NCBI GenBank assembly: GCA_016235445.1
Contig: JACRLB010000015.1
Span: 62,001 to 126,000 of the forward strand
Length of the DNA stretch: 64,000 bases
Reading direction: 5' to 3'
DNA from: Chloroflexota bacterium
Lineage (GTDB): Bacteria; Chloroflexota; Anaerolineae; Anaerolineales; Villigracilaceae
Under the pieces are notes generated by a model. That model was not told the DNA's origin. It ran no database searches and worked only from the letters and a program-made list of their open reading frames with translations. Shown here in pieces: positions 30,216-62,958 of this stretch (position 1 is the first letter of the stretch; each line of letters begins with the position of its first letter). Position numbers and translations under genes: made by a program.

Positions 30216-32534
30216 CTACAGCTTGTTTCTCATTTGATTGAGCAGTTGACGATACTCTTCGACGGTGGGCGGGTTCATCAAAACGATTTGGTTGATGGCG
30301 TCTATTGCGCCCTCTCGGTCTCCCTTTTCCATGAGAACTTCGCCGAGAACGTCGAGCAGGGTTACGGCTTCGGTGGTGCGGCCTGTGTGATGGAGTTGTG
30401 CGGCGAGGGTGCGCTTGAGCAGGGGCTGGTCTTCGTGATCTTTGACGAGTTCTTCGAGGAAGGTGATGGCGAGTTCGTTTTTGTTCTGGCTTTCAAGGTG
30501 ATTGATGTAATTCTCGAGTTCGCTCAGAGCCTTGTCGGGTTGGGCCATGCGCAGGTTGAGTTCGATGATCTGTTTGCGGGCTGAATCATCGTCGGGGGCC
30601 AGGGTGCGGATTTGTTCGTAGACGCGCAGGGCTTGTTTCCAGTCCAGGCGTTGCAGGTCGATGTCGGCCATGCGCTGGAGGATGTGGGTGTTCCAGTCGC
30701 GGCTGGCGTTGCCTTGTTGAACGAGGCGCAGGGCGATGGTGAAGGTTTTGCGCGCCATATCCAATTCGGCGAGGCGGTAGTGGATGGCGGCGAGTTCGAG
30801 ATATTCGTGGATGGCGTCGTCGATCTGTCCGCGGGCGATGAGTTGGTCGATGAGGCGGTTGCGTGAGCCGAGGTCCATGGGGGAGAGTTGGATGATGCGG
30901 CGCAGTAGTTTTGTGGCTTGTAATACTTCTCCGCGTGCGCTGTAGGATTGGGCCACCACGCCGTATTTTGCAATGGCTTCGGTGGGGCGGCCTTCCTGAA
31001 CCAGGAGATCGCCCATGAGGGTGTGGAGGGGCAGGTAGGTGGGGGCGTGCAGGACGGCGTCGAAGGCTTCGTCCATGGCGGAGCGCAGACTGCCCATGCG
31101 CGCCAGTTGATTGATGCGGTTCATGGATTCGAGCACTGAACTGGATTGCGCCTGCAAGATGACATCTGCCAGCGGGGCGAGCATTTCGCCATCCTGCTTT
31201 GGCATTTGGTCGCGGGTTTTGTGCATTTGTTCGCGCCAGTCGGGGCGGGTGAGTAAACCGTTGATGTTCTCGCAAATTTTTTGCAGGGCTGATTCATCTT
31301 TTTGATTTTTTTGAGCTTCGATGAATGGCTCATATTGCTGGCGGATATCGTCTGCCTGGTCGGATGGAACGGTCATTGAGTCGGCCAGTTTGAGGGCTTC
31401 AAGATATTCCAATGCGGCGGCGTGGAAGTCGGATTTCTTGGCGAGCATTTGCCCCAATAGCAGGCGGGTGCCGAGGGCGTAATCGTGATGTTTGATGGCG
31501 TTCTGTAAAAAGCGTTGCGCGCTTTCGTAGCGTTCGCCTTTGTAGCGCAATAGGCCGAGGTTGAAATACAGGGCGGGATGTTTGAAGTTGGCTTCGAGCG
31601 CGGCTTCCATTTCTTCGGCGGCCTGTGATTCTTTACCTTTGCTTTGCGCGTCGATGGCCTGACCGAGATGAAGCACAACCGTGGTCTGTTCGGCGTTCTG
31701 CATGGAGATTCCGCCGGTGCCTTTCATGATGGCGGAAAGGCCGCGGCGTTCCTGTGCGGCTGGACTTTCGTCGGAGAATTCGAAGAGCAGTTCTGCGAGC
31801 TGGGTCAATGCTTTTTGGCGGGCTTCGGTGATTGGGTCCAGCCCGGAGGAGGCTCGTGAAGCGTGCGGCTCCTGCAATTGTTTGACCTGCGACATGCGGA
31901 TCGGTCCCGTGCCGCCTTTGCCGCGAATCGGTTTGGGGAGCAGTTGTCCCGTTTTGAGCAGGGTCTGCGCCTGCTTTACTTCGACGCTGTTCGGTGAAAT
32001 GGACTGGGCTTTGTCCACCATCTCTTTGGATTTCTCGGCATTGCCTGCGCGTTGAATGATGCTGGCGAGCGCGAGATATTCCGTCACAGATTGTTGGGCG
32101 TGGCCGAGTTTTTCATGCACCTGCGCGAGACGGGAACGCGCGATGGCATGTTCGGGATTCAAGTTCGTGACGCGCACCCAGTTCTCGAGCGCCTTTTCGG
32201 TATCGCGCTGTTGCAAAAAAAGATCGCCCGCGCGCAGGGCGGCGTCCATTGCGTTTTTTAGATTGCCAAGCCGTTCGGAGAGTTGTGCCACTTTTTCCAT
32301 GGGCACGGGGTCATCGGGCGAGAGCTTTGCCACGTTCATGTAAATCTGCAACGCTTCTTCGATGGCGCCGGACTGATACAACGCAAGCGCGAGACTGCTG
32401 AGCGCTTTGGGGTTATCGGGCATTTCCTGCAAGGCGCGCCGATAGGCGCTGACGGCCTTGTCCCATTCCTGGTCCCAGGCGGCAGAGTGGCCTTCGTTCA
32501 TTGCTTTTTGGAAAATGTCGTCTCGTCCGGGCAT
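30216..32534 (-). CDS. Large TPR-repeat protein
   Basis: A 772-residue soluble protein composed almost wholly of tetratricopeptide repeats, for example EWDKAVSAYRRALQEMPDNP, ALALYQSGAIEEALQIYMNV, DWKQALRVYEQIRTLAPDDD and GDREGAIDAINQIVLMNPPT near the C-terminus. There is no signal peptide or membrane segment. A Gly/Lys-rich break occurs near residue 205 (KPIRGKGGTGPIRMSQ). It starts at ATG 32534. Function unknown; likely a scaffold. Confidence 0.85.
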   Translation of the reverse strand: MPGRDDIFQKAMNEGHSAAWDQEWDKAVSAYRRALQEMPDNPKALSSLALALYQSGAIEEALQIYMNVAKLSPDDPVPMEKVAQLSERLGNLKNAMDAALRAGDLFLQQRDTEKALENWVRVTNLNPEHAIARSRLAQVHEKLGHAQQSVTEYLALASIIQRAGNAEKSKEMVDKAQSISPNSVEVKQAQTLLKTGQLLPKPIRGKGGTGPIRMSQVKQLQEPHASRASSGLDPITEARQKALTQLAELLFEFSDESPAAQERRGLSAIMKGTGGISMQNAEQTTVVLHLGQAIDAQSKGKESQAAEEMEAALEANFKHPALYFNLGLLRYKGERYESAQRFLQNAIKHHDYALGTRLLLGQMLAKKSDFHAAALEYLEALKLADSMTVPSDQADDIRQQYEPFIEAQKNQKDESALQKICENINGLLTRPDWREQMHKTRDQMPKQDGEMLAPLADVILQAQSSSVLESMNRINQLARMGSLRSAMDEAFDAVLHAPTYLPLHTLMGDLLVQEGRPTEAIAKYGVVAQSYSARGEVLQATKLLRRIIQLSPMDLGSRNRLIDQLIARGQIDDAIHEYLELAAIHYRLAELDMARKTFTIALRLVQQGNASRDWNTHILQRMADIDLQRLDWKQALRVYEQIRTLAPDDDSARKQIIELNLRMAQPDKALSELENYINHLESQNKNELAITFLEELVKDHEDQPLLKRTLAAQLHHTGRTTEAVTLLDVLGEVLMEKGDREGAIDAINQIVLMNPPTVEEYRQLLNQMRNKL

Positions 32535-32817: not shown

Positions 32818-35625
32818 TTATTCGGATTTTAATACCGACATCTCGCCCCAACTCGCGCCCGCTCTTGCTTCTGTTTCGAGAGGGATGCTCATCGGGTAGG
32901 CATTCGCCATCGTGTCCTGAACGACTTGCGCCGTCTTTTGCATTTCGCTTTTCGGGCATTCCAACACAAGTTCATCATGCACCTGCAAAAGCATTTTGCC
33001 TTTCAGCCCGGCATCTTTCAACGCGGACGGAATTTTCAGCATGGCGATCTTCATAATATCTGCGGCGGTGCCTTGAATGGGCGCGTTGATGGCTTCGCGT
33101 TCTTCGCGGTTCTTCATCTGCACATTGACCTTGCCCTGCAAAGCGGGGAAGTAGCGTTTGCGTCCGAGCAGGGTTTCCACATAGCCAATCTCTGCGGCCT
33201 GCCTTCGCATCCCGTCGAGATATTTTTTCACGCCGGGGAATTTCTTGAAATAGGCTTTCACGAAATCCTCCGCTTCGGCCAATGTCAACTCTGTAGAGCG
33301 GGTGAGGCCGAAGGCAGACATGCCGTAGATCAAGCCGAAGTTGATGGCTTTGGCATGGCGGCGCATGTCTTTGGTGACTTTCTCCAACTCGATGTCGTAG
33401 ATGGCGGCGGCGGTGGTGGCGTGGATATCCTCTCCCGCGCGGAAGGCCGCGATCATGGCTTCGTCATTTGCCATGTGCGCGACGATACGTAATTCGATCT
33501 GCGAATAATCCACGGAGAGCAGGACGTTGCCTTTGTCGGCGATGAATCCATTGCGCACGCGGCGTCCCGTTTCGGTGCGGATGGGGATATTCTGCAAGTT
33601 CGGGTTATTGGACGAGAGACGCCCCGTCACTGCGCCGATCTGGCTGTAGGAGGTATGCACGCGGCCCGTGTTTTCGTCCACGGCGGCGGGGAGCGCATCC
33701 ACGTAGGTGGATTTGAGTTTGGACAGTTCGCGTTGTTCGAGAATCCATTCGAGGATGGGGTGTTTATCGCGCATGGCATCCAGCACGTCTGCCGAGGTGG
33801 AGTAAAAGCCCGTCGCTGTTTTGCGGCCTTTGTCGGGTGGTTCGAGGCGCAGGTGATTGAATAACACATCCGAAAGTTGCTGGGGCGAGTTGATGTTAAA
33901 CGTCTTGCCAGCCAGCGCGAATACTTCCTTTTCGATTTCAGCCAGGCGTTTTTCCAATTCAGTAGACATGACGGCGAAGAATTTTATGTCGATCAACGCG
34001 CCTGTCATTTCCATGCCTGCCAGCACGGCGCTGAGCGGCATGTCAATTTCATCGAGCAATTTTGTGCCGTTCACGCGCTTCAATTCTTTTTCCAGAATCG
34101 GCATCAGGCGCAGGGTGTTTTCCGCATCGGCGGCGGCATACGCGGCAACAGACTCGATGGCAACGTCTGCCATGCTGATTTGCTTTTTGCCTTTGCCGAT
34201 GAGTTCTTCGATGTGGGTCATCTCTTCGCCGAGGCGGGCAGATGCGAGATTCTTCAACCCGAAATTTCGCGAAGATGGGTCAACGATGAATTCAGCCAGC
34301 ATCGTGTCGAAGGTTAAGGGCGAGACAGCCAGCCCATGGCGCGCGAGCACGATGTAATCATATTTTGCATTGTGCGCCAGCTTGCCGATCTTCGCGTCCG
34401 TCATGGATGGCGTGAGCGCTGCGATCACTTTTTCGATGGGCAGGTTATCGCCAGCCGAATGACCAACGGGAATGTAATATCCCTGCCCGTCTTTGACCGC
34501 CAGCGAAATGCCGACGATCTCCGCTTTCATCTCTTCGGTGGAGGTTGTTTCCGTATCGAATGAAATGACTTTTGCTTTAGCCAGTTCTTTTGTCAACGCA
34601 TCGAGTTTTGCATCCGAATCAACGATGATCACTTCGATGCTCGAAGGCTGTGAAAAAGTGACCACCTGCGGCTGGTTTTGGAACATCGAAATCTGCTCGC
34701 CTGCCTTGCCTTTCTTTGGCCTGGCAATAACTTCCGTGGCAAGCGCGTTTCCACTGATCGCAGGGACTTTGCTCAGCAAGGTCTTGAATTCCATTTCTTT
34801 GAAGAAGGTCTCAAGTTTGGCTGGGTCAAATGGTTTTACCGCGGCATGTTCGAGATCAAGGCTGATCTTGAGGTTGACTTCGATGCGCGCGAGGTCGCGG
34901 CTCATGTAGGCCGCATCCCTGCCCGCCTCGAACTTGCCCTTCCAGCGGTTTTCAACCTGCTCCAAATTTGCGTAGATCGCATCCAGCGTATCAAATTTTT
35001 CGAGCAAAGAGATCGCAGTTTTTTCACCGACCCCTTTGATTCCTGGAATGTTATCGGAAGTATCGCCTACGATGGCTTTGTAATCCACAACCTGATTCGC
35101 CCGCACGCCTAATTTTTTGATGACGTCCGCATCGGAGAGGTAGGTCTGGTCATCGCCTGCGAGATAGACAGCCGTTCGCTCATTCACTAACTGAAGCAGG
35201 TCTCTGTCACCTGTAATGATTTTTACCCCCAGGCCTTGTTCCGCCGCTATTTTGGCGACGCTCCCAAGAACATCGTCCGCTTCGTAGCCTTCCATTTCGA
35301 GGCGCGGAATGTTGAAGGCATCCACCATCTCGCGGATGCGGTCGATCTGCGGGCGCAGGTCATCGGGCATTTTTTCGCGTGTGCCTTTGTATTCGGGGAA
35401 GATGTCATCGCGGAAGGTTTTGCCCACATCGAAAGCCACCGCCAGATATTCGGGCTTTTCCTGCTCCAGCACGCGGACGAGTTCGCGCGCGAAGCCGTAC
35501 ACTCCCGCGGTGGGTTCACCTTTGGAGGTTTGCCAGCGTGAGCTTCCACCGCCGCCCGCGGTCAGGGCAAAATACATGCGGTAGGCAAGAGCGTGTCCAT
35601 CAATTAGATAAAGGGTAGGGGGCAT
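32818..35625 (-). CDS. polA: DNA polymerase I
   Basis: A 935-residue family A polymerase with all three domains. The 5'-3' exonuclease is residues 1-290 (LYLIDGHALAYRMYFAL, YEADDVLGS, GDRDLLQLV, GVGEKTAISLLEKF). The 3'-5' exonuclease has an intact DTETTSTEEM motif, so it is probably proofreading. The polymerase domain has SVDYSQIELRIVAHM (motif A), RRHAKAINFGLIYGMSAFGL (motif B) and LLQVHDELVLECP (motif C). Start ATG 35625 was chosen since the family begins MPPTLYLIDGHA; the upstream open frame is a genomic repeat. It works in repair and Okazaki fragment processing. Confidence 0.96.
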   Translation of the reverse strand: MPPTLYLIDGHALAYRMYFALTAGGGGSSRWQTSKGEPTAGVYGFARELVRVLEQEKPEYLAVAFDVGKTFRDDIFPEYKGTREKMPDDLRPQIDRIREMVDAFNIPRLEMEGYEADDVLGSVAKIAAEQGLGVKIITGDRDLLQLVNERTAVYLAGDDQTYLSDADVIKKLGVRANQVVDYKAIVGDTSDNIPGIKGVGEKTAISLLEKFDTLDAIYANLEQVENRWKGKFEAGRDAAYMSRDLARIEVNLKISLDLEHAAVKPFDPAKLETFFKEMEFKTLLSKVPAISGNALATEVIARPKKGKAGEQISMFQNQPQVVTFSQPSSIEVIIVDSDAKLDALTKELAKAKVISFDTETTSTEEMKAEIVGISLAVKDGQGYYIPVGHSAGDNLPIEKVIAALTPSMTDAKIGKLAHNAKYDYIVLARHGLAVSPLTFDTMLAEFIVDPSSRNFGLKNLASARLGEEMTHIEELIGKGKKQISMADVAIESVAAYAAADAENTLRLMPILEKELKRVNGTKLLDEIDMPLSAVLAGMEMTGALIDIKFFAVMSTELEKRLAEIEKEVFALAGKTFNINSPQQLSDVLFNHLRLEPPDKGRKTATGFYSTSADVLDAMRDKHPILEWILEQRELSKLKSTYVDALPAAVDENTGRVHTSYSQIGAVTGRLSSNNPNLQNIPIRTETGRRVRNGFIADKGNVLLSVDYSQIELRIVAHMANDEAMIAAFRAGEDIHATTAAAIYDIELEKVTKDMRRHAKAINFGLIYGMSAFGLTRSTELTLAEAEDFVKAYFKKFPGVKKYLDGMRRQAAEIGYVETLLGRKRYFPALQGKVNVQMKNREEREAINAPIQGTAADIMKIAMLKIPSALKDAGLKGKMLLQVHDELVLECPKSEMQKTAQVVQDTMANAYPMSIPLETEARAGASWGEMSVLKSE

Positions 35626-35631
35626 GGTTTC

Positions 35632-35775
35632 TTCTTTCGTCATTGCAAGGAGGGCGCTTGCTCTTCCCGACGAAGCAATCTTCTCACTGTGCGCGATTGC
35701 TTCGGGCACACCTGCCCTGGCGGGCGGTGCCAGGGAAAAACAAGAACGCCCTCGCAACACTAGCGCCGCACGCCA
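35632..35775. repeat. Repeat block upstream of polA
   Basis: Begins GTCATTGCAAGGAGGGCGCT and contains GACGAAGCAATCTTCTC, a phrase common as a scattered repeat in many genomes. The 29 bases at 35707-35735 (starting CACACCTGCCCTGG) recur perfectly in inverted orientation at 59981-60009. Confidence 0.7.
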
Positions 35776-35845
35776 GTGCAGGTGTGACGGATGTATGGAA
35801 TGTTAAACAAGAAGCGCAGAGTTATTATACTCTGCGCTTAATTTT

Positions 35846-37504
35846 TTATTGACGTCCGCGCGGTGGGGGGGCGGCGGCTTCCTGTCCCTGGCGCTGACGG
35901 GTCTGGCGGATATAGTCTCTCACCAGTTGCGGCGGGTGCGGCTGTGTGCCGCCCATGATGAGATAGCCCGGCGCCCAGAAATCTCCGGACGGGTTTTCCT
36001 TCTTTATTCGATTGAATTCGCCAAAAACCTTTTCCGAAGTCTGCTGGCGCATGATGCGCATGAGATAGCCAGGCGATGTGTTCGGTTGAACGTTCACGAC
36101 CCATTGCAAATATTCGGGGCGCACGGCCAGATATTCCAGCCGCCAGCCGAAGGCAATGCAAATATTCGGCAGCCATTCGCCGAGATGATCGGCGAGATCA
36201 CCAGTGATGTAGTGGGATGAAAATCTCGGCACCAGCAGGCAGGCATACGTGAGATGATACAAGCCCGCCGTGGTTGGTTCCACCACCAGCTTTCGCGCCG
36301 CTTCGGTGGATGGGCCTTCGCGGGTGACATCCGTTTCGCCAGCGGGTTTGGAGATCGGCGTCTCCGCTCTCTGCCGTAGACGCGATGGCGCTGTGACTTC
36401 CACTTCGTCAAAGGCAGTTTGAGAATCAACGCTCATTTGCGGGCTTTGGGCCTGGTCTGTCATCATCATTCGCCCCAACTGCACAGAAGGAGAAGCCTCT
36501 CGATTGAAAACCGATGCGTTTGAAAGCGATTCGGAGACTCGCGTCTGGTTGGGGTCGAACTTTTCTTTTTGGCGCGCCATGCCAACGTCACGCACAGAGG
36601 CGGGGCTGGGGTTGGGCGCGGGAATGTCGGTGAGGATGTTCGAGATCGGGGCGATATCCAGCGCTTCGTTCTCTTCCAGATCATCGGGAAAATCGTTGAC
36701 CTGTTTGCGAGCAGATTTCATCTGCTTTTGTGATTCGGGCCTGTCACTGCCAAAGTCATTGACGAGTTGGCTGGCCTGTGCGCGGATGGTGCTGAACGGG
36801 GTTTCAGCATCGAAGACAAATGCAAGCACGGTCTCGGAAGTGAGGCGCGTGGCGTAGAGCATGTGCTCGGCTTTGGTGCTTTCAAGGCGGATGAACCGCA
36901 GAAGATCGGAGCCTTTTTGTCCGTCCCAATTGCGGGTGACGGTTTGCGCCACTTCTTTGGCGGCATTTTGTGAGAGGCCTCCGGCATACGCCCATAAATC
37001 ATTTTTAAGAGTGATCAATGCGGCCTGGGCAGAGGATTCTAAAGTGAGGCGCGTGAGGTGCTGGGCGGCTTTGGTCTGGTCGTTGAGCCAGGGCAAAGGC
37101 GCTGTGCCGCTCATTTGAGAGGCAGGTGCGGCTGGTTGGGGTTGGCTGATTGCGGTCATAAAATCTGACATCCTAAAAGGCTTACGGACGAGAATCCATG
37201 GGCGCAATGTATTGAAGGCGGGAGGATTGACGTTTTCGTCACAAAGAATAATGAGATTTAGCCCGGGGCGCACAGTACGCAGCGCTTTTCCGATCTCGAG
37301 CACCCATTCATCGCCAAGGGCAGAGTCCAGCATGGCGAGGGGCAGACCAATTTCATCAGCCCGTACCACGGCAGAAGCCTTGTTGTTGACAATATGGCTT
37401 CGATATAGCTTGGTTTCATCCAAAATATGGCGAATGGATTCACCGAGGCTGGTTGAAGGGGTAACAATTAGAAGATCGGCGGGCATTTGAATGAAGTTTA
37501 TCAC
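35846..37504 (-). CDS. Receiver-like / roadblock-like protein fused to a degenerate Y1 (IS200-type) transposase domain
   Basis: A 552-residue protein with an unusual domain order. Residues about 8-115 resemble a receiver fold (ADLLIVTPSTSLGESI, LAMLDSALGDEW, WILVRKPFRMSDFM). Residues about 150-265 resemble a roadblock/LC7 domain (AQAALITLKNDLWAYAGGLS, TVLAFVFDAETPFSTIRAQA). A disordered linker follows. Residues about 411-535 follow the IS200/IS605 TnpA fold segment by segment (AGLYHLTYACLLVPRF, ADHLGEWLPNICIAFGWRLE, FWAPGYLIMGG, QLVRDYIRQT). The metal-binding His-x-His is replaced by Tyr465 and Gln467 in PEYLQWVV, while the catalytic Tyr position (Tyr531) is kept. Start GTG 37504 or ATG 37486. 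It follows the 187-residue gene by 31 bases and probably shares its transcript. Confidence 0.7.
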   Translation of the reverse strand: MINFIQMPADLLIVTPSTSLGESIRHILDETKLYRSHIVNNKASAVVRADEIGLPLAMLDSALGDEWVLEIGKALRTVRPGLNLIILCDENVNPPAFNTLRPWILVRKPFRMSDFMTAISQPQPAAPASQMSGTAPLPWLNDQTKAAQHLTRLTLESSAQAALITLKNDLWAYAGGLSQNAAKEVAQTVTRNWDGQKGSDLLRFIRLESTKAEHMLYATRLTSETVLAFVFDAETPFSTIRAQASQLVNDFGSDRPESQKQMKSARKQVNDFPDDLEENEALDIAPISNILTDIPAPNPSPASVRDVGMARQKEKFDPNQTRVSESLSNASVFNREASPSVQLGRMMMTDQAQSPQMSVDSQTAFDEVEVTAPSRLRQRAETPISKPAGETDVTREGPSTEAARKLVVEPTTAGLYHLTYACLLVPRFSSHYITGDLADHLGEWLPNICIAFGWRLEYLAVRPEYLQWVVNVQPNTSPGYLMRIMRQQTSEKVFGEFNRIKKENPSGDFWAPGYLIMGGTQPHPPQLVRDYIRQTRQRQGQEAAAPPPRGRQ

Positions 37505-37535: not shown

Positions 37536-38099
37536 CTATTGGGGGGCATCGTAATCTGCCTGTAAGCCCTGGATGCCTAATAACAGCATTAACACTTCAG
37601 GCGGAATATTCGTTTCGGGCATGTCAGTTTTGTAAAGCTGGCCGTTTTCGGCTCGTTCGCGCAGATTTTTCCATAAAAGTTCACGTTCCTGGCTTTGCAC
37701 AACCAGCTCGTTCAATAACTTTGCGTTGAGCAGGTATTCGCCAGTGGAATAGAGGAAGGTCAACCGCTTCCATTTATCCGCCCTGATGGGTTCCTTTAAT
37801 TTCTCCAACCCGCCAAGCTGGATTTTATAATATTCCTCGTTTGCGCGCGGGTGGTCGGCTTCATCTTTGAGCAGTTCACCGCGGGTGGTGAGTTCGTGCC
37901 CGTAGACCTGGGCAATGAATTCGATTTGTCCGCCGCGCTCGCCGAATGCCGAGGGCTGGTAAAAAGCCAGATAGTCCACGGCTACAACTTTCGGCGCGGT
38001 GCGAAGCGGAATGCGGTACCATCCCAACAGCCGCGCGATTTCCAGGTCACGCGGGGAGGGCAACAGGGCAACCAGAACGAGATCGGTGGGTTTAATCAT
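37536..38099 (-). CDS. Conserved protein of unknown function (187 aa)
   Basis: A soluble 187-residue protein starting at ATG 38099. Notable segments are LVALLPSPRDLEIARLLGWY, IPLRTAPKVVAVDYLAFYQP, GQIEFIAQVYGHELTTRGEL and ADKWKRLTFLYSTGEYLLNA. The pattern looks like a compact alpha/beta domain followed by helices; I do not recognise a named family. It is divergent from the membrane-protein gene at 38132 (32-base gap, shared promoter region) and leads into the Y1-fusion gene. Confidence 0.7.
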   Translation of the reverse strand: MIKPTDLVLVALLPSPRDLEIARLLGWYRIPLRTAPKVVAVDYLAFYQPSAFGERGGQIEFIAQVYGHELTTRGELLKDEADHPRANEEYYKIQLGGLEKLKEPIRADKWKRLTFLYSTGEYLLNAKLLNELVVQSQERELLWKNLRERAENGQLYKTDMPETNIPPEVLMLLLGIQGLQADYDAPQ

Positions 38100-38131
38100 C
38101 GAGTTAATTATAACTTCATGAGGAGTTTGGA

Positions 38132-38764
38132 ATGAAGATTCATCCATCCCGTTTTGAGCAGATGACTGCGTTGACCGATGTGACGCTTGGGATTCTGGCA
38201 GGGTACGCGGCATTTCAGGTTTTGCAAATTTCAGGGTTTAAATTCATGGTGTGGGGATGGGCGTTTGGGCTGTTGGCTTTTTCTGCGTTATGCGCGGCGC
38301 TCTCTCATAGCTTCGAGATGACACAAAAAACAAACGAGCGCATCTGGATGCCGGTCAATTTGTCTTTGGGATGGACGCTTGCGCTGTTCGTGATCGGCGC
38401 TTTGATGGACTTGAGCGGAGAGACGCTTGCAAAGAGCGCGCTTCCCTCCGCGCTGACAGTTGGTTTCCTGTTTTTCGTTGTCACGGTACTACGCCCGGGC
38501 ACGTTTATGATCTTCATTGCCTATGAAGCCGTTGCCATGTTGTTCTCGCTGGGGGTGTATGCTTTTCTGTTTTTCAATGAAACATTGCCCGGGGCAGGCT
38601 GGATGCTGGCAGGAGTCTTTGTGACGATTATGGCTGCCGTGGTTCAGGCCGTTGGGAAGACGGGGAAATCCATCGTTTGGTATTTCGATAACAATGGAGT
38701 CTTTCATTTGATCCAAATGCCGGGGATTGTTTTACTGCTGGCGGGGTTGATGACTTCGTTGTAA
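38132..38764 (+). CDS. Polytopic membrane protein of unknown function (DUF6962-like)
   Basis: A 210-residue protein with about seven hydrophobic segments, e.g. VTLGILAGYAAFQVLQI, FMVWGWAFGLLAFSALCAAL and AGVFVTIMAAVVQAVG, and the loop WYFDNNGVFHLIQMPGIVLL near the end. GAGGAG precedes ATG 38132. The look is that of small DUF6962-type membrane proteins; no function is claimed. A strong hairpin follows. Confidence 0.75.
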   Translation: MKIHPSRFEQMTALTDVTLGILAGYAAFQVLQISGFKFMVWGWAFGLLAFSALCAALSHSFEMTQKTNERIWMPVNLSLGWTLALFVIGALMDLSGETLAKSALPSALTVGFLFFVVTVLRPGTFMIFIAYEAVAMLFSLGVYAFLFFNETLPGAGWMLAGVFVTIMAAVVQAVGKTGKSIVWYFDNNGVFHLIQMPGIVLLLAGLMTSL

Positions 38765-55391: not shown

Positions 55392-55441
55392 TTGCGTAAT
55401 CGGTAATTGGTAATTCGTAATTACCCAATTACTAATTACTC
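55392..55441. repeat. TAATTGG/GGTAATT tandem words, gap acsE-acsV
   Basis: CGTAATCGGTAATTGGTAAT followed by ATTACCCAATTACTAATTAC makes short direct repeats that are also self-complementary. The same words fill the gaps at 57386-57440, 58768-58857 and 62911-62958, so this A/T-rich repeat has settled in four spacers of the acs operon. Confidence 0.75.
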
Positions 55442-57381
55442 CTACTCAACGCCTCCGCCACACTCGGAAACTTGCTCATGTCCGTGTGCGGCAAAAATAA
55501 TGCCGAAGTGAATGCATCGTAAAAACTGTTATCTGCTGAAAGCTCGATGTAAGTCATGCGCTTTGCGATCTCGGTAATTTGTTTGCGCTTGCGCCAGTCG
55601 AGCAGGGCATAATACGCGCCCTTCACCGCCGTGTTGCCAAGAAACTCAAAACGCGGCCAGTCCATGTCGGGCAGTAATCCAATTTGCACAGCCTTCTCCA
55701 CGTTGATATATTTTCCGAACGAACCGCCGATCAACACCTTTGAAACGCTATCCAGAGGGATGCCCACCGTATCAGCCAACACTGTGAAGCCTGCATAAAT
55801 GGCGGCTTTGGCGCGCAGTAAATTATCCACATCGACTCTGGATATGACGATATCCTCGCCTGATTCGGATTCCGCGCCCCAGGCCACCACATACTCCCCG
55901 CCATGCGCCCCATCCCTGACCCTTGGGCTGATCGCCATTAAATTAACATTCCCAGCCTTATCAATGATCCCCGTTATAAAAGCCTCCGAAAGCAGGGATA
56001 TCAAGCCGCTTCCGCAGATGCCCTTCGGCTTGACTCCGCCGATGACTCGATAGGTCGGCTCGAACGTTTCGCTGTTGATCCACACCTCTTCGATTGCGCC
56101 TTGCGTCGCCCGCATCCCATTGACCACGCCCGCGCCTTCAAAGGCTGGCCCCGCCGAGCACGCGCAAGTGACCAGCCAATCGCGGTTGCCCAACACGGTC
56201 TCGCCGTTTGTGCCGACATCCAGAAAGAGCGTCACATCTTCAGCAGTATCAAGCCCGGACGAAAGCACGCCCGCAGTAATATCCGCGCCAACGTACGAAG
56301 CAACTCCAGGCAGACAATCCACGCTGGCTTCGGGATGAGTCTTCAACCCGACTTCGCGCGCCGTCATCAATGGCGGATGACCGACTGCGGTGATGAAAGG
56401 TGAAAGCCGAATATTGGATGCGGGGATGCCGAGCAGTAAATGGATCATTGTGCTGTTGCCCGCAATCGTGGCTTTGACCACTTCCTCAGGTTTGGCGTTG
56501 ACTCGCTTGCAGGCTGTCTTGATCAATTCATTGATCGTATCCAGCACACGCTGACGGAGTTCCTCCCCGCCGCCATTTTTGCTGGCGTACATAATGCGGG
56601 AAATGACATCCTCGCCGCGTGCGATCTGTCCGTTGTATTCTGCAACCTGCGCCCGCACCTGCCCGCTGACAAGGTCCACCAGCCAGACGGAAACAGTGGT
56701 TGTGCCAATGTCAATTGCAGTTCCCCAGAGCGGTGAATATTCATCAATGTGATTGGGTTGCAGTTGGATTAGTCTGCTAGTCTGCTCGTCGGCTCGTCGG
56801 CTAGTTTCAATGGTGGCAGTGACATTCCAATCACCTTCGCGCAATACCTCTCCCATCTCCCGCAACAAACTCACGGAACATGTAACCCCGCCCTGAGCGG
56901 AGCCGAAGGGATGCTCCATCTTATGTTGCTGTCGGAACGCCGTTTGCAGTCGTGACCAGTCATCCGTTTGATCGTCCATACTGGGCGGGGTCAGTTCCAA
57001 ATGAATGCGCCGCACCGTTTGATCTTGCAGGTATTCATACCCTTCAGGGACAGTGACTTCCGCAACGACGCGGTCTGTCGTCAGCCGCCGCTCGATCTTC
57101 TCCTGCGGCGGAATGTAGATCGAAACATTTCCCTCGATGACAGTCTGACAAGCGAGCGCATAGCCCTGTTCCACATCATCGGGGGATAGCCGCAATGTGC
57201 TTCTGCGGCGGACATTCCCCTCCGTCACCTGCACCGCGCAACGCCCGCAACGCCCCTGTCCGCCGCACGGCTGACCGATGTCAATGCCCGCGAGATGCGC
57301 GGCATCGGAGAGCAAAGCCCCTGTGGGAATTTCCACGGAGACTTGCTTATCGTTGTGGGTGAAGGAGATGGTATGTTGCAT
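55432..57381 (-). CDS. acsV: Ferredoxin-ASKHA reductive activator of the corrinoid protein
   Basis: A 649-residue protein. The N-terminal 2Fe-2S ferredoxin domain (PCGGQGRCGRCAVQV, a later Cys in GYALACQT) is followed by a linker and a DUF4445/ASKHA ATPase with TAIDIGTTTVSVWLVDLV, ATIAGNSTMIHLLLGI, LFLDVGTNGETVLG and VLIGGSFGKYINVEKAVQIG. RACo-type proteins use ATP to re-reduce cobalt(II) in AcsCD. ATG 57381 starts the ferredoxin domain, while an upstream in-frame stretch reads through repeat DNA. Residues about 159-167 (HPFGSAQGG) are a repeat-derived insertion. Confidence 0.9.
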   Translation of the reverse strand: MQHTISFTHNDKQVSVEIPTGALLSDAAHLAGIDIGQPCGGQGRCGRCAVQVTEGNVRRRSTLRLSPDDVEQGYALACQTVIEGNVSIYIPPQEKIERRLTTDRVVAEVTVPEGYEYLQDQTVRRIHLELTPPSMDDQTDDWSRLQTAFRQQHKMEHPFGSAQGGVTCSVSLLREMGEVLREGDWNVTATIETSRRADEQTSRLIQLQPNHIDEYSPLWGTAIDIGTTTVSVWLVDLVSGQVRAQVAEYNGQIARGEDVISRIMYASKNGGGEELRQRVLDTINELIKTACKRVNAKPEEVVKATIAGNSTMIHLLLGIPASNIRLSPFITAVGHPPLMTAREVGLKTHPEASVDCLPGVASYVGADITAGVLSSGLDTAEDVTLFLDVGTNGETVLGNRDWLVTCACSAGPAFEGAGVVNGMRATQGAIEEVWINSETFEPTYRVIGGVKPKGICGSGLISLLSEAFITGIIDKAGNVNLMAISPRVRDGAHGGEYVVAWGAESESGEDIVISRVDVDNLLRAKAAIYAGFTVLADTVGIPLDSVSKVLIGGSFGKYINVEKAVQIGLLPDMDWPRFEFLGNTAVKGAYYALLDWRKRKQITEIAKRMTYIELSADNSFYDAFTSALFLPHTDMSKFPSVAEALSRSN

Positions 57382-57385
57382 GGGA

Positions 57386-57440
57386 TAAGTAATTGGTAAT
57401 TGGTAATTAGTAATTACCAATTACCAATCGCCAATTACTA
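57386..57440. repeat. TAATTGG tandem words, gap acsV-acsC
   Basis: Words of TAATTGG and ATTACCAAT in both orientations fill the 56-base gap and reach the acsC stop. They form a hairpin but have no terminator tail. Confidence 0.7.
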
Positions 57441-58754
57441 ATTAAGAACCTGTTTCATAAACGCGGGCAGATCCACAGCCTCACGCGGACCAACGCGGAT
57501 TTCCCAGCCAGGCAATTCTTCTTCCACTTCACCTGAAAGCACCGCCACATGCCCAGGTAAAACAATCCGCTTCCTGCTGATCTTATCCGCAACGTTAAAT
57601 CCTTTGATGGCTTTGGCAATTCGTTCCGCGTCGAATTTGCCCGCCGCCCATGCCGTCAGCACCGACATGCCTTCCGCGTCTGTGACAACCAGCCAAGCGG
57701 GCAGGCCACTGCCTTCCACTTCGTTTGCAACCGCAAAGTATGTGATGCTGAAATTTGTCGTCACCAGCACAGGGCTTTCAGGTTTCGGCGAGTTGATCTC
57801 GTAAATTCCTGGCTGAACTTGAATCGGTTTTTGCGGGTCGGTGTAAATGTTTTCGCGCAGGACGAGCAATGGATAAAGCAATTCAGGTTTGAACTCGCTC
57901 AGTACAACGAAGCCCGCGTATTTTGCAATGGCTTGCGCGGCGGCGATGCCTTCATCTTTTGCGTCACATGGGAAAGCGATGATGGGATAGCCAAGCGAGC
58001 GCACATTCTTGAGCGCAAGTTTTCGCAATTGGGTATGGCGTGTTAATGACGCGCCCAATGTCGCCGCGGCAGGGTCGAGCACAATATCTTCGACACCTTT
58101 GGCCTGGACTTTTTGAGTCAACTCTGCGAGCGCATCGAGCGAATCCGCTCTCACCACGAGCGCGGCTTTGTGCTTCTTTGCAAGATCCGCCAACGGTTCA
58201 TAGTCGGACCGCTGCGCGTCTGCGGCGTAGATCAATGCTGATTCGCCAGCGAGCAGGCTGAGGCTTGAGTCAAGATGCGTGACGTCGTTTGCGATCAAAA
58301 TTAAGGGACGCTTGGTCACATCCCGAACGGCTTTTACCGCCGCTGTAAGGTCGCCATCCGCTTCCACAGCGAAACCGTCAATCGAAAAATCCATGCCAAC
58401 ATAATTAACTTTGTACGCTTCGGCTTTCGCAACTTTCGCGGCGAGGTCGGGGTCGCTGGCTTTGACGCGGATGAAGAGGCCAGGCTTGTTGTAAAAAGTT
58501 TTTTCGTGGCGGAACATGCAGACTTCGTTGCCCGCTTTGATTTCACTGCCCGCTTTCAACGTGACGAGCCGAATGGGCGGCGCGGATGATTCGGCGAGTT
58601 GTTTTTTCGATTCTTCGCTGACGTAGGGACACACGCCGAGTTCAACTTGTTTGGCGGCGAGTTTCATCGCGAAGGCGAGGCAGGTGGGAAAGCCGCATTC
58701 CTTGCAGTTGGTCTGCGGGAGCATTTTGTAAATTTGGATTCCTGACAAAGCCAT
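57438..58754 (-). CDS. acsC: Corrinoid iron-sulfur protein large subunit (CODH/ACS gamma)
   Basis: A 438-residue subunit. The N-terminal [4Fe-4S] motif is TNCKECGFPTCLAFAMKLAA with the fourth Cys in ELGVCPYVSEE. A TIM barrel follows (VNYVGMDFSIDGFAVEADGD, GYPIIAFPCDAKDEGIAAAQ), then the C-terminal cobamide domain (TNFSITYFAVANEVEGSGLP, DAEGMSVLTAWAAGKFDAER). It receives methyl from AcsE and gives it to AcsB. ATG 58754 was chosen because the family starts MALSGIQIYKML; the frame upstream is repeat DNA. Confidence 0.95.
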   Translation of the reverse strand: MALSGIQIYKMLPQTNCKECGFPTCLAFAMKLAAKQVELGVCPYVSEESKKQLAESSAPPIRLVTLKAGSEIKAGNEVCMFRHEKTFYNKPGLFIRVKASDPDLAAKVAKAEAYKVNYVGMDFSIDGFAVEADGDLTAAVKAVRDVTKRPLILIANDVTHLDSSLSLLAGESALIYAADAQRSDYEPLADLAKKHKAALVVRADSLDALAELTQKVQAKGVEDIVLDPAAATLGASLTRHTQLRKLALKNVRSLGYPIIAFPCDAKDEGIAAAQAIAKYAGFVVLSEFKPELLYPLLVLRENIYTDPQKPIQVQPGIYEINSPKPESPVLVTTNFSITYFAVANEVEGSGLPAWLVVTDAEGMSVLTAWAAGKFDAERIAKAIKGFNVADKISRKRIVLPGHVAVLSGEVEEELPGWEIRVGPREAVDLPAFMKQVLN

Positions 58755-58767
58755 GGTGTCTCCTTTG

Positions 58768-58857
58768 TAATTGGTAATTGGTGATTGGTAATTACCAATT
58801 ACCAATCACCAATTACCAATTACCAATTACTAATTACCAATCACCAATCACTAATCA
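58768..58857. repeat. TAATTGG tandem words, gap acsD-acsC
   Basis: About 90 bases of alternating TAATTGG, ATTACCAAT and TCACCAAT words with inner inverted symmetry. They separate acsD from acsC. Confidence 0.75.
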
Positions 58858-59814
58858 CACAGTAACGAGTTCTTCAATCGCGTCCTTAACTCGTTTCACC
58901 GATTCAGGATGCCTCAGCACAACAATATCCGCGCCCGATTCAACGAGCGACATCGCGGTGAGAGTTTCCCAATTAATAGCGCGGGCTTTCCAGTCGCCCC
59001 ATGCTTCGGGCACGCCTTCGCCAACCTTGGCTTCTTTTGTCTTCCATGCTTCGAAGCCAGGCGTGACGATCATCGGAAGTTGAGTCATCGCGTCGCCCTG
59101 CAATGCGGCGAGGCGCAAACGCTCCATCACCGAGTAGCCATACTCGATGCCATAGCCGAGCGCGCCCGTGGTCGGGTCCATCAGGATGCGGTCTTTGGGA
59201 ATGCCCATGTCGCTGACGAGAATGTTCAACTGCTTAGAGAGATTTACATCCATCGGCGCGCGCGCCTGCACAAGATGCCCGTTCGCCATTGCGGTGGCGA
59301 CAATGGTGCGATAGTTTTTATCCTCGCAGATGCCAAGCACGATCTTCTCGCCATTGGTTGCTTCGGAGACAGGCACAAGCAATTCATTATCTTTTTCCGC
59401 CTGCCCCGGCCCCCAGACGATGAGCGGGAGTCCCGTCGCGCTTAATACGGATTTGACGATTCGTACCGCGTCTTCAGGAGTATCTTCAACGGTCAACGCC
59501 AGGACGAGCAGGTCTGCTCCTGCTTCTTCGGCTTTTTTCGCCCATTGAGCGGGGTCCGCCATCGCCTCGCCCCAGACATCCGCCAGAAGCGGAGACCAGT
59601 CTTCAGGCTTGCGCGATTTGATCTCGATTGCGATAACGGGTTTGTTCGGCGCTTCGTCTCCGCTTGGCATCGCTTCGTATTGCAAATAGGGCATGGTGGT
59701 TTGTCCGCCGACCGTCACAGTCTTTGTGCGCGTGCCGCCCTCGGCGCTTGTCGCTCCAATGGTGACCGCGCGAATGCTTCCAGTCCATTTGTCTTTTGGA
59801 ATTTCGATGGGCAT
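58855..59814 (-). CDS. acsD: Corrinoid iron-sulfur protein small subunit (CODH/ACS delta)
   Basis: A 319-residue TIM-barrel protein. Family segments: GSIRAVTIGATSAEGGTRTK, VTVGGQTTMPYLQYEAM, PVIAIEIKSRKPEDWSPLLA, PLIVWGPGQAEKDNELLVPV, VQARAPMDVNLSKQLNILVS, RILMDPTTGALGYGIEYGYS and NWETLTAMSLVESGADIVVL. With AcsC it forms the corrinoid carrier. A repeat-filled gap of 300 bases follows upstream before the CBS gene, so a separate promoter is possible. Confidence 0.94.
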   Translation of the reverse strand: MPIEIPKDKWTGSIRAVTIGATSAEGGTRTKTVTVGGQTTMPYLQYEAMPSGDEAPNKPVIAIEIKSRKPEDWSPLLADVWGEAMADPAQWAKKAEEAGADLLVLALTVEDTPEDAVRIVKSVLSATGLPLIVWGPGQAEKDNELLVPVSEATNGEKIVLGICEDKNYRTIVATAMANGHLVQARAPMDVNLSKQLNILVSDMGIPKDRILMDPTTGALGYGIEYGYSVMERLRLAALQGDAMTQLPMIVTPGFEAWKTKEAKVGEGVPEAWGDWKARAINWETLTAMSLVESGADIVVLRHPESVKRVKDAIEELVTV

Positions 59815-60114
59815 TGTTTCTCCTTGTTTGATGTAGACATGTACACAAGTAAACAGGTAAACAGGTAAACAGGTGGACAGGTTACTTGTTTACCTGTCTA
59901 CCTATTTTGACAATGTCACATTTCAAAACCTTTTACCACAAAGTCCACAAAGGGTCACAACACTTGCGCCGCACTGCGTTCCCTGGCACCGCCCGCCAGG
60001 GCAGGTGTGTTGCAGTGCAGGTGAGGAGAGCAAAATGCTAAACCCACGTGTTACTTAGTGACCTTTGTGGTTAAGAACCTTGATTTCAGCTTTAATGTGA
60101 CATTGTCAAACTGT
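59815..60114. repeat. Set of nested inverted repeats between acsD and the CBS gene
   Basis: From outside inward: AAACAGGTAAACAGG tandem words with inverted partner (about 59845-59905); a perfect 16-bp pair TTGACAATGTCACATT (59907-59922) and AATGTGACATTGTCAA (60094-60109); ACCACAAAG and CTTTGTGGT (about 59934 and 60063); and the 29-base repeat (59981-60009) that recurs inverted at 35707-35735. The layering suggests successive insertions. There is no coding sequence. Confidence 0.75.
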
Positions 60115-60606
60115 TTACATTAATCCTGCTTTTCTTCTCGCTTCATCTCTTCTCTCGATAAACTGCTCGATTGGCGTTTTTCTCTCCGCCGCGAGTCCCA
60201 AATCCTTCAAGTCTTTTTCATCCTTCGCCGCCATGTGACGCAAAATATGACGATACGAAATATATGCGGCAGGATAAATAATCCCTGCCGAGTTGTGAAG
60301 CATGTATGCGATGCGAATGCCTTTGTCTTTCATCATCAGCGCGGCGAACTCCAGGGAAATATCTGCGGGTAATTCGGGCACGCCTTCGCTCATGATGTCT
60401 TCGGCGGTCAGCGTTTCATATCCTTCGCGGGCATAGGCACAAACCAACTCGTCCACACCGACCACGCCAATGCCGTGGCCTTCCGCATCGAGCACGCACA
60501 TCGCTTCGACATTCTTTTCCAGAAGGAAGCGGGCAATGTCCACGATGGGAGAGTCCCATTTGCAGGTTGGGACTCCGACGGTCATCAGGTCACGGACGAG
60601 TTTCAT
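60115..60606 (-). CDS. CBS-domain protein in the acs operon
   Basis: A 163-residue protein with two CBS motifs: VRDLMTVGVPTCKWDSPIVD ... CVLDAEGHGIGVVGVDEL, and AEDIMSEGVPELPADISLEF ... IRIAYMLHN. A basic C-terminal tail (RKTPIEQFIERRDEARRKAG) follows. CBS pairs bind adenine nucleotides (or NAD) and could report energy state. It lies between acsB and acsD, so it may tune the complex; this is inference from context. Confidence 0.85.
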   Translation of the reverse strand: MKLVRDLMTVGVPTCKWDSPIVDIARFLLEKNVEAMCVLDAEGHGIGVVGVDELVCAYAREGYETLTAEDIMSEGVPELPADISLEFAALMMKDKGIRIAYMLHNSAGIIYPAAYISYRHILRHMAAKDEKDLKDLGLAAERKTPIEQFIERRDEARRKAGLM

Positions 60607-60701
60607 TGTTTATGTAAACAAGTAGACACGTAGACAAGTAAACAGAAAAAAATAACCAGGCACACAATCAACGACAAAACTTGTGTACCTGTCTACCTTC
60701 A
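60607..60701. repeat. Tandem GTAGACA/GTAAACA words, gap acsB-CBS
   Basis: AAGTAGACACGTAGACAAGT near the CBS start and TTGTGTACCTGTCTACC near the acsB stop are inverted. Same wording as the outer layer at 59830-59905. Confidence 0.6.
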
Positions 60702-62897
60702 CTAGAACATCGCTTCCATCGCCATGGCGGGATGATTGTGCGCTTCGAGCCAGGCGAGCAAATCTTCAACTGAATTTACATTCCTTTCATCGGCGATCTT
60801 GTCCATGAAATCAGGGTCGCCTTCGCGTTCGCAGACGGCTTTCACGCCAGGGGTTTGCATCCCGCCGCCTGCAATGCCCGCCAGAGTGGAGAAGGTCATG
60901 CCTGCGGGAGTCATGGCAGTATCTTCGCGGCTGAGCACCATCACGCCGTTGGCTTCGGGGATGAGCATGACGATGCACTCGAAACATCCGCAAGCCGTCA
61001 TTGGATTCTCCATGATCGAGTACATGGCAACCTCGTTGACCACGCCATGCGACCCCATTTTGGCGTAATCGTTCGTGCCTTCCCAATAGCCTTTTTTCAT
61101 GTCCACAGACTTGCCGAGTTTGATCGGTTGATTCGGCCCTGTTGGGTTGATGCTGAACGAGGCTTTGCAGTCCAGCCAGTTGTAGGCGCCGCACAAGCCG
61201 AGTCGCTCAGGCGAAACCACGCAGACATGATTCGGTGCAAATGACTGACAGAGTGTGCAGGAATAGAATTCGTCCACTTTGTCATCCGTCAAATCGGCAA
61301 GACGCTTGTTGCGGAAATCGTACGAGACGCGCGCTTTCTCCAGCCATTCGGCATGGAGCGCAGGTTCGGTGACAATGGTCACTTGAACCTTGTCCACGAT
61401 TGCGCCGAAGTCTTCATGGAATCGTGCGTGCAGAATTTTGCCAAACGATTCAAGGCTAAAGCCTTTATCTGCCGCGGCATTCGAGATGCGAATCCACGCG
61501 ATGTCACGCTGGCCGACGTGTTGAATTCCGCTTGCGCCGTTCACAAAATAATGGACTTGTCTTTCCAGCACAGGCTCAAAGTCCTGCTGCATTTGCCGCC
61601 CCGCCACTTTGATAATGATGCCCATGTCCATCGAGCCTTGTGATTCAACTTTCGAGAAATCGGGGCCGATGACTTCGATCTTGCCATCGGTGACTTCATC
61701 CAGTTTTGCGCTGTGCAAATATTCAAATGCGCGGCTGTGTTTGCCGCCGAATTCCACGCGCAAATCTGCCTTGCGGACAACTTCACCTTCAAACGCGGAG
61801 CCGTACGGCACAGGCACATCCACGTTTGAGACTTTGACTTTGACGCCGCGAATCTCGATACATTTCTGAACGAGTCTTTCGGCTCTTTCCAAATCATCTT
61901 TGCCGTCAATTGCGCTAAACGGCATGGAGACAACGTGTTCATAAGTCGTCACGCCTGTCGGCAAAATCTCGGGGATGACCGTATCCGCAATCACAGGGAA
62001 ACCAAAGTTGATCGCGCCAGCGGCGGCGGCATATTTCAAATCATCCACTTCGCCGAGAGCCAGCACAAACGCGAAGACGCGCTCTTTGTTGTACAGCAAA
62101 ATTTCGCGGGACATGCCGGGTTTCATTCCGCCGAAAGTTAATGCGGAGCGGGTGGCAAAGCCCAGCGCGTAAATCGCAGAGATGGTATCCGTGCCAAACG
62201 GGACGGTGTAGGTGTCGTAACCAAGTTCAACGCCTTCTTCCTGCAATTGATGGATGATGCTTCGCCCATTGACATTGCCAGAGAGGAAGGTCAATATGTT
62301 GCGGCGTTGCAATTCGCGCACGATCTTGACCGCGACTTCATTCGATTTTGCGCATCCAACGATTGCGGCGAATCCAGGCATACGTCCATCCACAAGTTGA
62401 ATGCCCCACGAGCGCAGTTGAATATCGTCAATCGGGCCGTTGAGATGCCCGTCGTTCCCTCCTCTCCCTTCGGGAGAGGGGCTGGGGGTGAGGGCATTAT
62501 CGGGGCTGGTGAATGACGTGCCGCCCGCGAGGTGGAATCCCTGCATAGGTTCAGGTTGAAGCCCATAAGCGAAGCGCACCGCTTCAATCGTCTCAGCGGC
62601 AAGAAGCGTTGCCATTCCTGAATCGAGAGTCTCGCCCAGGTAGGGAGTCCATTTTGAAAAGGCGGGAATCGGATGAAGCATATCGCGCGCCTGTTTCAAT
62701 ACGGGTTTCAAGTCGCCGAGTTTTTCAACAGACTTGCCCGTCATGCCGAGAATGGTGGGGAGGTAGTACGCCGTGTTGGGGAACGAGACGGGAGTGTCTG
62801 CGCCTTTTTCAGTGATCGCCATGTGGAGCATGATCTCGGCTTCCGCTACAAGCGCGTTCGCGCCGCGCATGGCACGGGTGGCAATATATTTTGACAT
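60702..62897 (-). CDS. acsB: Acetyl-CoA synthase (CO-methylating), alpha subunit
   Basis: A 731-residue acetyl-CoA synthase. The A-cluster cysteines are in CTLCQSFAPNHVCVVSPERL followed by GLCGAYNWLDC, and in the CGC of TACGCFECIVML. Other family parts: LRSWGIQLVDGRMPGFAAIV, GNVNGRSIIHQLQEEGVELG, GTDTISAIYALGFATRSALT, INPTGPNQPIKLGKSVDMKK and AGMTFSTLAGIAGGGMQTPG. It joins CO, the methyl of AcsCD and CoA. Residues about 131-147 (NALTPSPSPEGRGGNDG) are encoded by a CCCTC-family repeat inserted in frame before the conserved GPIDDIQL. ATG 62897 starts at the expected place. Confidence 0.96.
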   Translation of the reverse strand: MSKYIATRAMRGANALVAEAEIMLHMAITEKGADTPVSFPNTAYYLPTILGMTGKSVEKLGDLKPVLKQARDMLHPIPAFSKWTPYLGETLDSGMATLLAAETIEAVRFAYGLQPEPMQGFHLAGGTSFTSPDNALTPSPSPEGRGGNDGHLNGPIDDIQLRSWGIQLVDGRMPGFAAIVGCAKSNEVAVKIVRELQRRNILTFLSGNVNGRSIIHQLQEEGVELGYDTYTVPFGTDTISAIYALGFATRSALTFGGMKPGMSREILLYNKERVFAFVLALGEVDDLKYAAAAGAINFGFPVIADTVIPEILPTGVTTYEHVVSMPFSAIDGKDDLERAERLVQKCIEIRGVKVKVSNVDVPVPYGSAFEGEVVRKADLRVEFGGKHSRAFEYLHSAKLDEVTDGKIEVIGPDFSKVESQGSMDMGIIIKVAGRQMQQDFEPVLERQVHYFVNGASGIQHVGQRDIAWIRISNAAADKGFSLESFGKILHARFHEDFGAIVDKVQVTIVTEPALHAEWLEKARVSYDFRNKRLADLTDDKVDEFYSCTLCQSFAPNHVCVVSPERLGLCGAYNWLDCKASFSINPTGPNQPIKLGKSVDMKKGYWEGTNDYAKMGSHGVVNEVAMYSIMENPMTACGCFECIVMLIPEANGVMVLSREDTAMTPAGMTFSTLAGIAGGGMQTPGVKAVCEREGDPDFMDKIADERNVNSVEDLLAWLEAHNHPAMAMEAMF
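62457..62503. repeat. In-frame CCCTC palindrome inside acsB
   Basis: TCCCTCCTCTCCCTTCGGGA ... GAGGGGCTGGGGGTGAGGG lies within the coding region and adds about 17 residues without a stop. It is a copy of the family at 47.6, 51.9 and 54.4 kb. Confidence 0.75.
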
Positions 62898-62910
62898 CGT
62901 TAATCTCCTC

Positions 62911-62958
62911 GTAATTGGTAAATGGTGATTGGTAATTACTATTTACCAATTACTAATC
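62911..62958. repeat. TAATTGG tandem words, gap acsA-acsB
   Basis: GTAATTGGTAAATGGTGATT and ATTTACCAATTACTAATC fill the 55-base spacer between the two main enzyme genes and touch the acsA stop codon. Confidence 0.7.

Follow-up and report, generated by a model that had tools for sequence, protein, structure and literature searches.

What role is left to a transposase-type domain that has lost its cutting residues, when that domain forms the end of a signalling protein and the gene lies beside polA, is the question raised by a single gene in the window, by which we mean the whole stretch of 64,000 nucleotides that was analysed. The locus is of interest as a case of a 'broken' Y1 lineage on which selection is strong, within a signalling protein and next to a polymerase gene. 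The first-pass annotation of this DNA had described the product as a signalling-type protein ending in a degenerate IS200/IS605 Y1 domain, and on this description Pfam, the PDB profile and the AlphaFold model agree. The reading frame starts with a GTG codon at 37504 on the minus strand and has an in-frame ATG at residue 7. Since matches to the fusion protein were found in 85 of 101 genomes searched (its own genome counted), the frame is not a chance one. A genome search found one copy of its Y1 domain in its own genome and no second. A profile of the whole protein matched 298/298 genomes of the class, a tally that is not evidence because the receiver part of the profile picks up ordinary receivers. 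The positions of the features are collected in Table 1.

Table 1. Features around the fusion gene, in positions of the window
Feature	Position	Strand	Basis
TPR protein, 772 aa, gene after polA	30216..32534	-	Pfam/NCBIfam, adjacency count
polA, DNA polymerase I, conserved downstream neighbour	32818..35625	-	Pfam, NCBIfam, adjacency counts
Intergenic mosaic of dispersed repeats with REP-like hairpin	35630..35845	.	43 genome matches, own included
Terminator-like hairpin (both strands), between fusion gene and polA	35812..35839	.	Sequence
Fusion gene, receiver-like + roadblock + linker + catalytically dead Y1 domain, 552 aa	35846..37504	-	ORF, Pfam, genome matches
Dead Y1 domain, residues 412-541; former catalytic positions Y465, Q467, Y531, T535	35882..36271	-	Pfam, profile, Foldseek, Z scores
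Linker, residues 262-404, fast-evolving, low conservation	36293..36721	-	Homologue alignment, dN/dS
Roadblock/MglB-like domain, residues 138-255	36740..37093	-	Foldseek, Pfam scan
Receiver-like domain, residues 7-123; D60 and K108 kept, T15-P16 replace acidic pair	37136..37486	-	Profile, model, residue check
Upstream gene, no Pfam or NCBIfam match	37536-38213		Present in 90/101 genomes

The receiver-like N-terminus and roadblock-like middle that had been proposed from the sequence are supported by profile and by model, though they are faint in single-sequence Pfam scans. An AlphaFold model of the N-terminal part (pLDDT 87.4) consists of a receiver followed by a roadblock domain. With a 63-row profile the receiver matched PDB receivers at 1.3e-7, and its model gave a Z of about 15; for the roadblock domain MglB chains appeared in the Foldseek list, 6h5b having a TMt of 0.68 and an rmsd of 2.7 over 120 columns. 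When 19 homologues were scanned singly against Pfam, Response_reg (PF00072) was found in 12 and Robl_LC7 in one (E 0.0012), and the same kind of scan matched neither family in the fusion protein itself. The receiver is atypical in that the phospho-acceptor Asp is kept and the acidic pair is lost. Among 50 homologues D60 is present in 49, with a gap in the other, and K108 in 43; the acidic pair, which in receivers binds Mg2+, reads T-P in the fusion protein and in 35 of the 50 in all. Some fused proteins are longer (655-1007 aa; L187-L191, L193 and L094 (f34)) and have a long stretch separating the receiver from the roadblock domain, in which no Pfam family was found in the four that were scanned (L187, L188, L191 and L094). 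A Herpes_UL74 match in the linker of the fusion protein (Pfam 0.003, under its cut-off) was put down to composition.

The C-terminal domain belongs to the IS200/IS605 TnpA sequence family and, in its predicted model, has the Y1 fold. A Pfam scan placed Y1_Tnp (PF01797) on residues 416-534 with an E of 1e-11, over the curated cut-off, and an NCBIfam IS200 family matched at 1.8e-13, slightly below cut-off (50.8 vs 55 bits). When 65 homologous C-terminal domains were made into a profile and compared with the PDB, eight chains fell below E 0.001 and every one of these was of TnpA type, the best match being 2ec2 of S. tokodaii (3.4e-12), followed by 2fyx, the ISDra2 chains, 2f4f and IS608. The AlphaFold model of the domain was made from the same 65-row alignment and reached a pLDDT of 86, with two of the five models poor (51.6 and 44.7). 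Foldseek matched it to TnpA chains at 1.6e-9, and VIA-align gave a Z of 15.5 to 2ec2 and of 13.4-14.8 to IS608 and ISDra2, the next unrelated fold standing at 7.3. The likeness to IS608 TnpA that the earlier reading presupposed is upheld by this comparison of a predicted model, all the TnpA chains lying at Z 13.4-15.5. The REP-associated TnpA 4er8 reached a Z of only 7.2, which is the level of unrelated folds.

At the former active site the residues are those given by the first-pass annotation: positions 465-467 read Y-L-Q in place of the H-x-H metal pair (Tyr465-Leu-Gln467), and residue 531 is Tyr. The third metal ligand, which sits four residues past the catalytic Tyr and is Q131 in IS608 (PMC6006769), is also replaced, by T535, the stretch reading Y531-I-R-Q-T535. 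Among 50 fused homologues, ranging from genus to order, the loss of the His pair proved to be general, H-x-H being found in one, which has Phe at 531; conservation of Tyr531 was incomplete once distant families were counted in, 36 having Tyr at this position and 14 Phe. Gln four residues past the Tyr was found in four of the 50, none of them with H-x-H. In the set of 80 named loci, 29 of which are common to the 50, Y-x-Q together with Tyr531 was found in 79 and the remaining frame ends early. H-x-H is in none of 11 fused proteins from outside the order, in which the Tyr position is Phe in eight, Tyr in two and Leu in one. The full set of H-x-H, Tyr and Gln at +4 was seen in none of the 50 and 80 fused homologues, the 11 fused proteins outside the order or 18 standalone proteins. 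The proposal that the kept Tyr signals function is not supported, Phe standing in its place in 14/50 homologues and 8/11 members outside the order. H-x-H is found in 21 of 21 non-fused IS200-like Y1 proteins in the tree described below, a count to be read with a seed biased towards H-x-H (the profile that selected these 21 had a seed of five H-x-H and six dead proteins), and in the five other Y1 proteins of the same genome as the fusion gene. As H-x-H is kept in non-fused Y1 proteins, its loss marks the fused family. With both metal-binding His and the third ligand replaced, the fusion protein, as judged from its residues, cannot be a standard nuclease. In an alignment of 65 near relatives Y465, Q467 and Tyr531, plus W468 and R536, are invariant, and the former active-site pocket (Y465, Q467, W468 and R536) may have acquired a new ligand.

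The dead Y1 domain is under strong purifying selection and is not a relic. Comparison of the fusion gene with nine relatives (nine pairs, by a simple method) gave dN/dS values of 0.01-0.03 for the Y1 domain, 0-0.06 for the roadblock domain and 0.10-0.25 for the linker; for the receiver the values were 0.04-0.10 in the five pairs with unsaturated dS, four receiver dS values being saturated. In a tree of 57 Y1 domains a branch with 100/100 support splits 27 fused and nine standalone dead domains from 21 HuH proteins, and the standalone dead domains group together (99/98), nested among the fused ones. The domain was probably captured once, earlier than the divergence of the sampled lineages, and then inherited vertically, a single event being inferred here from a midpoint-rooted tree restricted to Y1 proteins from this class and relatives. 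The simplest reading of the nested group is that later copying of the Y1 domain in the fusion protein's family would have given the standalone dead genes. Rows for standalone proteins were trimmed to the last 140 residues, and the tree left out control matches weaker than 1e-18, loci without a match and the fused loci L213 and L217; the weak control matches that aligned show H-x-H, except the fused L217. L149, whose frame ends early, was excluded from sets A3 and A4, and L188, a near copy, from A6. A mobile origin of the fusion copy was rejected on searches of phage and plasmid collections. The Y1 domain had no match in the phage collection, and in plasmids it matched 19 records, all at <60% identity, of which the eight rows shown comprise four tnpA and four unannotated entries. 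The single copy in the genome and its conserved place by polA are not those of a mobile gene.

The most constant feature of the surroundings is polA, for which a start at 35625 was chosen by the analyst, the ORF list extending to 35760 through the repeat. It follows the fusion gene on the same strand, at a distance of no more than 1.4 kb in 72 of the 80 named loci and within 0.6 kb in 70 of them. Eight loci lack it: in four the sequence past the fusion gene is <1.6 kb long, and in L126, L162, L163 and L172 it is 3-6 kb. Across 88 loci with downstream sequence (72 named and 16 distant, some of them one genome twice, as with L079/L162 and L086/L147), polA was within 5.5 kb in 79 and a relative of the TPR gene within the same distance in 59, while the most constant upstream neighbour was found in 32 of the 80 loci having upstream sequence. 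At least one genome from each of the ten other families sampled in the order has polA adjoining the fused gene. Among the distant loci within the order, L083 and L088 are without polA next door, and at L082 and L087 the distance to it is 2.7-2.9 kb. Twelve fused loci outside the order, hand-picked from the best rows of a class profile search and not random, include seven that polA adjoins (L093, L094, L187, L188, L189, L191 and L193) and one, L190, with polA at 1.4 kb; none was shown near the fused gene at L192, L194, L095 and L096 (4/12). The gene on the other side, which the first-pass annotation had put forward as a partner, does not have this constancy. It is near in 32/80 named loci, all of them closer relatives, while in the more distant genomes used for comparison its contig is a different one, and it was rejected as a general partner, the constant neighbour being polA on the other side. 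The 187 residues earlier given for it count from an inner ATG, the frame being 225 aa from its first start codon.

The link with polA may not have begun with the Y1 domain. At four receiver-roadblock loci without Y1, polA adjoins L089 and was not found at L090, L091 and L092, the contig of L091 ending 0.16 kb past the receiver-roadblock gene. Receiver-roadblock or short roadblock proteins in which no Y1 was seen adjoin polA at L089 and in the class families f23, f24, f42 and f49. In a class sample of 120 genomes, compared by hand, a roadblock match was found in 37, with polA adjoining in 17, at 1.4 kb in one and not near in 19; the roadblock profile used (A5) contains rows from class-sample genomes, the matches of which are there by construction. 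A search with the roadblock profile beyond the class gave weak matches in 4/151 genomes sampled from the phylum. Because several polA neighbours are receiver-roadblock proteins or roadblock proteins alone, the older link may be one of polA with a roadblock protein. Co-transcription of the fusion gene with polA is doubtful in their own genome, since the terminator-like hairpin and repeats separate them.

The standalone dead Y1 genes have different surroundings. Ten of those in the same genus as the fusion gene were viewed in context and eight (L177-L184) have a common gene cluster, in which a histidine kinase, an Mrr-type restriction endonuclease and the product of a second conserved gene are encoded within about 5 kb. 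The Mrr-type endonuclease of L177 matched PF04471 at 1.8e-11, and the second conserved gene encodes a TPR protein in L177; in L179 the frame scanned was shorter and gave no TPR match. A response regulator is present in seven of the eight clusters and is of LuxR type in L179. In PADLOC the Mrr-type protein of these clusters matches the candidate family PDC-S02, and the fusion protein matched no known defence system.

A connection of the Y1 domain with the hairpins around it, which had been suggested from the abundance of such repeats, finds no support in the distribution of the hairpin repeat next to the gene, whose occurrence among genomes does not parallel that of the gene. This REP-like repeat has 23 copies in its own genome (<=2 mismatches) and is absent from 11/43 genomes of the genus and from 23/28 genomes in other genera of the order, and among the matches listed the Y1 part is nevertheless matched in 10 genomes of the first group and 14 of the second. 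As a cognate target the repeat is not supported, being missing from many genomes with the gene. The mean net charge of the Y1 domain in the order is +3.5 (65 rows) compared with +3.0 in HuH relatives (21 rows); it ranges from 0 to -13 in the 11 fused proteins outside the order and from -5 to +5 in the freed paralogues. Going by sequence, DNA binding by the dead Y1 domain is possible in its own lineage; as a property common to the whole fused family it is unlikely. Elsewhere in the window, at 55396-62966, there are interspersed palindromic arrays with a GTAATTG/CAATTAC unit in 14-base steps.

The explanation that we put forward, and consider about evenly poised between right and wrong, is that the protein has a regulatory or scaffold role without catalysis, has at its core a TnpA domain of IS200 type that was domesticated long ago, and perhaps acts with or on Pol I. 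The receiver-like domain would be the input, the roadblock and Y1 domains would form a dimeric platform (both folds dimerise in known relatives), and the former active-site pocket, made up of Y465, Q467, W468, Tyr/Phe 531 and R536, would have changed from a cutting site to a binding site. The protein might then act with or on DNA polymerase I, which it could recruit, restrain or report on at single-stranded or structured DNA. A Pol I-linked role is suggested by the constancy of polA over ten other families; against it, the polA link may belong to the roadblock part, since some polA neighbours are without Y1. It could also be that the polA neighbourhood is inherited gene order only and functionally uninformative, which we think rather unlikely: separate transcription is plausible in the fusion gene's own genome, given the terminator-like hairpin, and the neighbourhood is missing in 19/37 class genomes with a roadblock match, but polA persists over the ten families and into other orders while the upstream neighbours change. 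If the Pol I link is true, the fusion protein would be a means, so far unrecognised, of controlling a core repair polymerase and would allow a direct test of the uses to which a dead HuH fold can be put.

The main competitors of a scaffold linked to Pol I differ in what the Y1 domain would touch, and as the readings overlap the weights given to them need not sum to one. A module made of protein contacts only, in which the Y1 fold dimerises or binds a partner within a roadblock/GTPase-type circuit and meets no nucleic acid, is a tentative possibility to which we give somewhat less than even weight. It fits with the neutral to acidic character of the Y1 domain outside the order, with the resemblance of the roadblock domain to MglB, the partner of the MglA GTPase, and with the presence in the same genome of two further roadblock proteins together with three matches of Roc type, of which one, in a frame of 1048 aa, exceeds the cut-off. 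It is opposed by the neighbours, polA being the constant one and an Mrr-type nuclease that of the paralogue, and by the finding of no GTPase among the four neighbours scanned with Pfam and NCBIfam, on which an MglA-type operon was rejected. That the dead Y1 domain instead binds DNA structures, as a sensor of hairpins or single-stranded DNA reporting through the receiver and roadblock domains (a broader form of what the first-pass annotation proposed, taking in any single-stranded structure), appears unlikely on balance, and this could overlap with the scaffold reading. Its fold belongs to a hairpin-binding family, its charge within the order resembles that of HuH relatives and both polA and the Mrr-type endonuclease of the freed paralogue are DNA-linked neighbours; the charges outside the order and in the paralogues count against it, as does the lack of a parallel between the occurrence of the gene and that of the local hairpin repeat. 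An active or recently mobile IS200/REP-type transposase fused by chance has the Pfam and NCBIfam names in its favour and is extremely improbable; it was rejected on the lost metal ligands and the many Tyr-to-Phe changes, to which may be added the single genome copy in a conserved place and the separation from HuH proteins in the tree. A more far-reaching version, which we regard as speculative and probably wrong, is that the Anaerolineae would have made a single-stranded DNA transposase into a dead reader of single-stranded DNA structure on a receiver-roadblock switch working on Pol I, and would later have placed a copy of that reader in an Mrr restriction cluster to sense damage or invaders.

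The fusion family can be set beside several known systems. IS200/IS605 TnpA (IS608, ISDra2, 2ec2) has the same fold and sequence family as the C-terminal domain; the fusion family differs from it in having no HuH and no Y---Q, a Tyr that is Phe in some distant members, fused signalling domains and a conserved chromosomal place. In the Myxococcus proteins MglB, which has the roadblock fold, and RomR, which has a receiver, the two kinds of domain occur within one system, whereas in the fusion protein a single chain combines them with a dead Y1 domain, its gene standing next to polA. As in domesticated transposases generally, the host has apparently taken over a domain from a mobile element, in this case a dead domain of the HuH superfamily in a signalling protein. 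TnpA-REP (RAYT), the best known of the domesticated Y1 proteins and described as the first prokaryotic domesticated transposase, is likewise a domesticated Y1 domain with housekeeping-like inheritance, but unlike the fusion family it keeps HuH and Tyr, processes REP hairpins and still cuts DNA (PMC8266576). For the one local repeat compared, the fusion family does not go along with REP-like hairpins: such a hairpin stands on one side of the fusion gene, and this repeat is missing from many genomes that have the gene. The signature given for TnpA-REP is HuH plus Y---NP (PMC6006769); the fusion protein has Y-L-Q and Y531-I-R-Q-T535 at these places. No report of a signalling protein with a dead Y1 domain, or of such a domain next to polA, was found in the literature covered, which for the most part did not extend to subscription journals. 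The 2018 survey of the Y1 family kept 722 of 924 sequences, those with HuH and Tyr, and took missing core motifs as the mark of non-functional proteins (PMC6006769). As HuH and Tyr were required, the fused lineage would be filtered out of such a survey.
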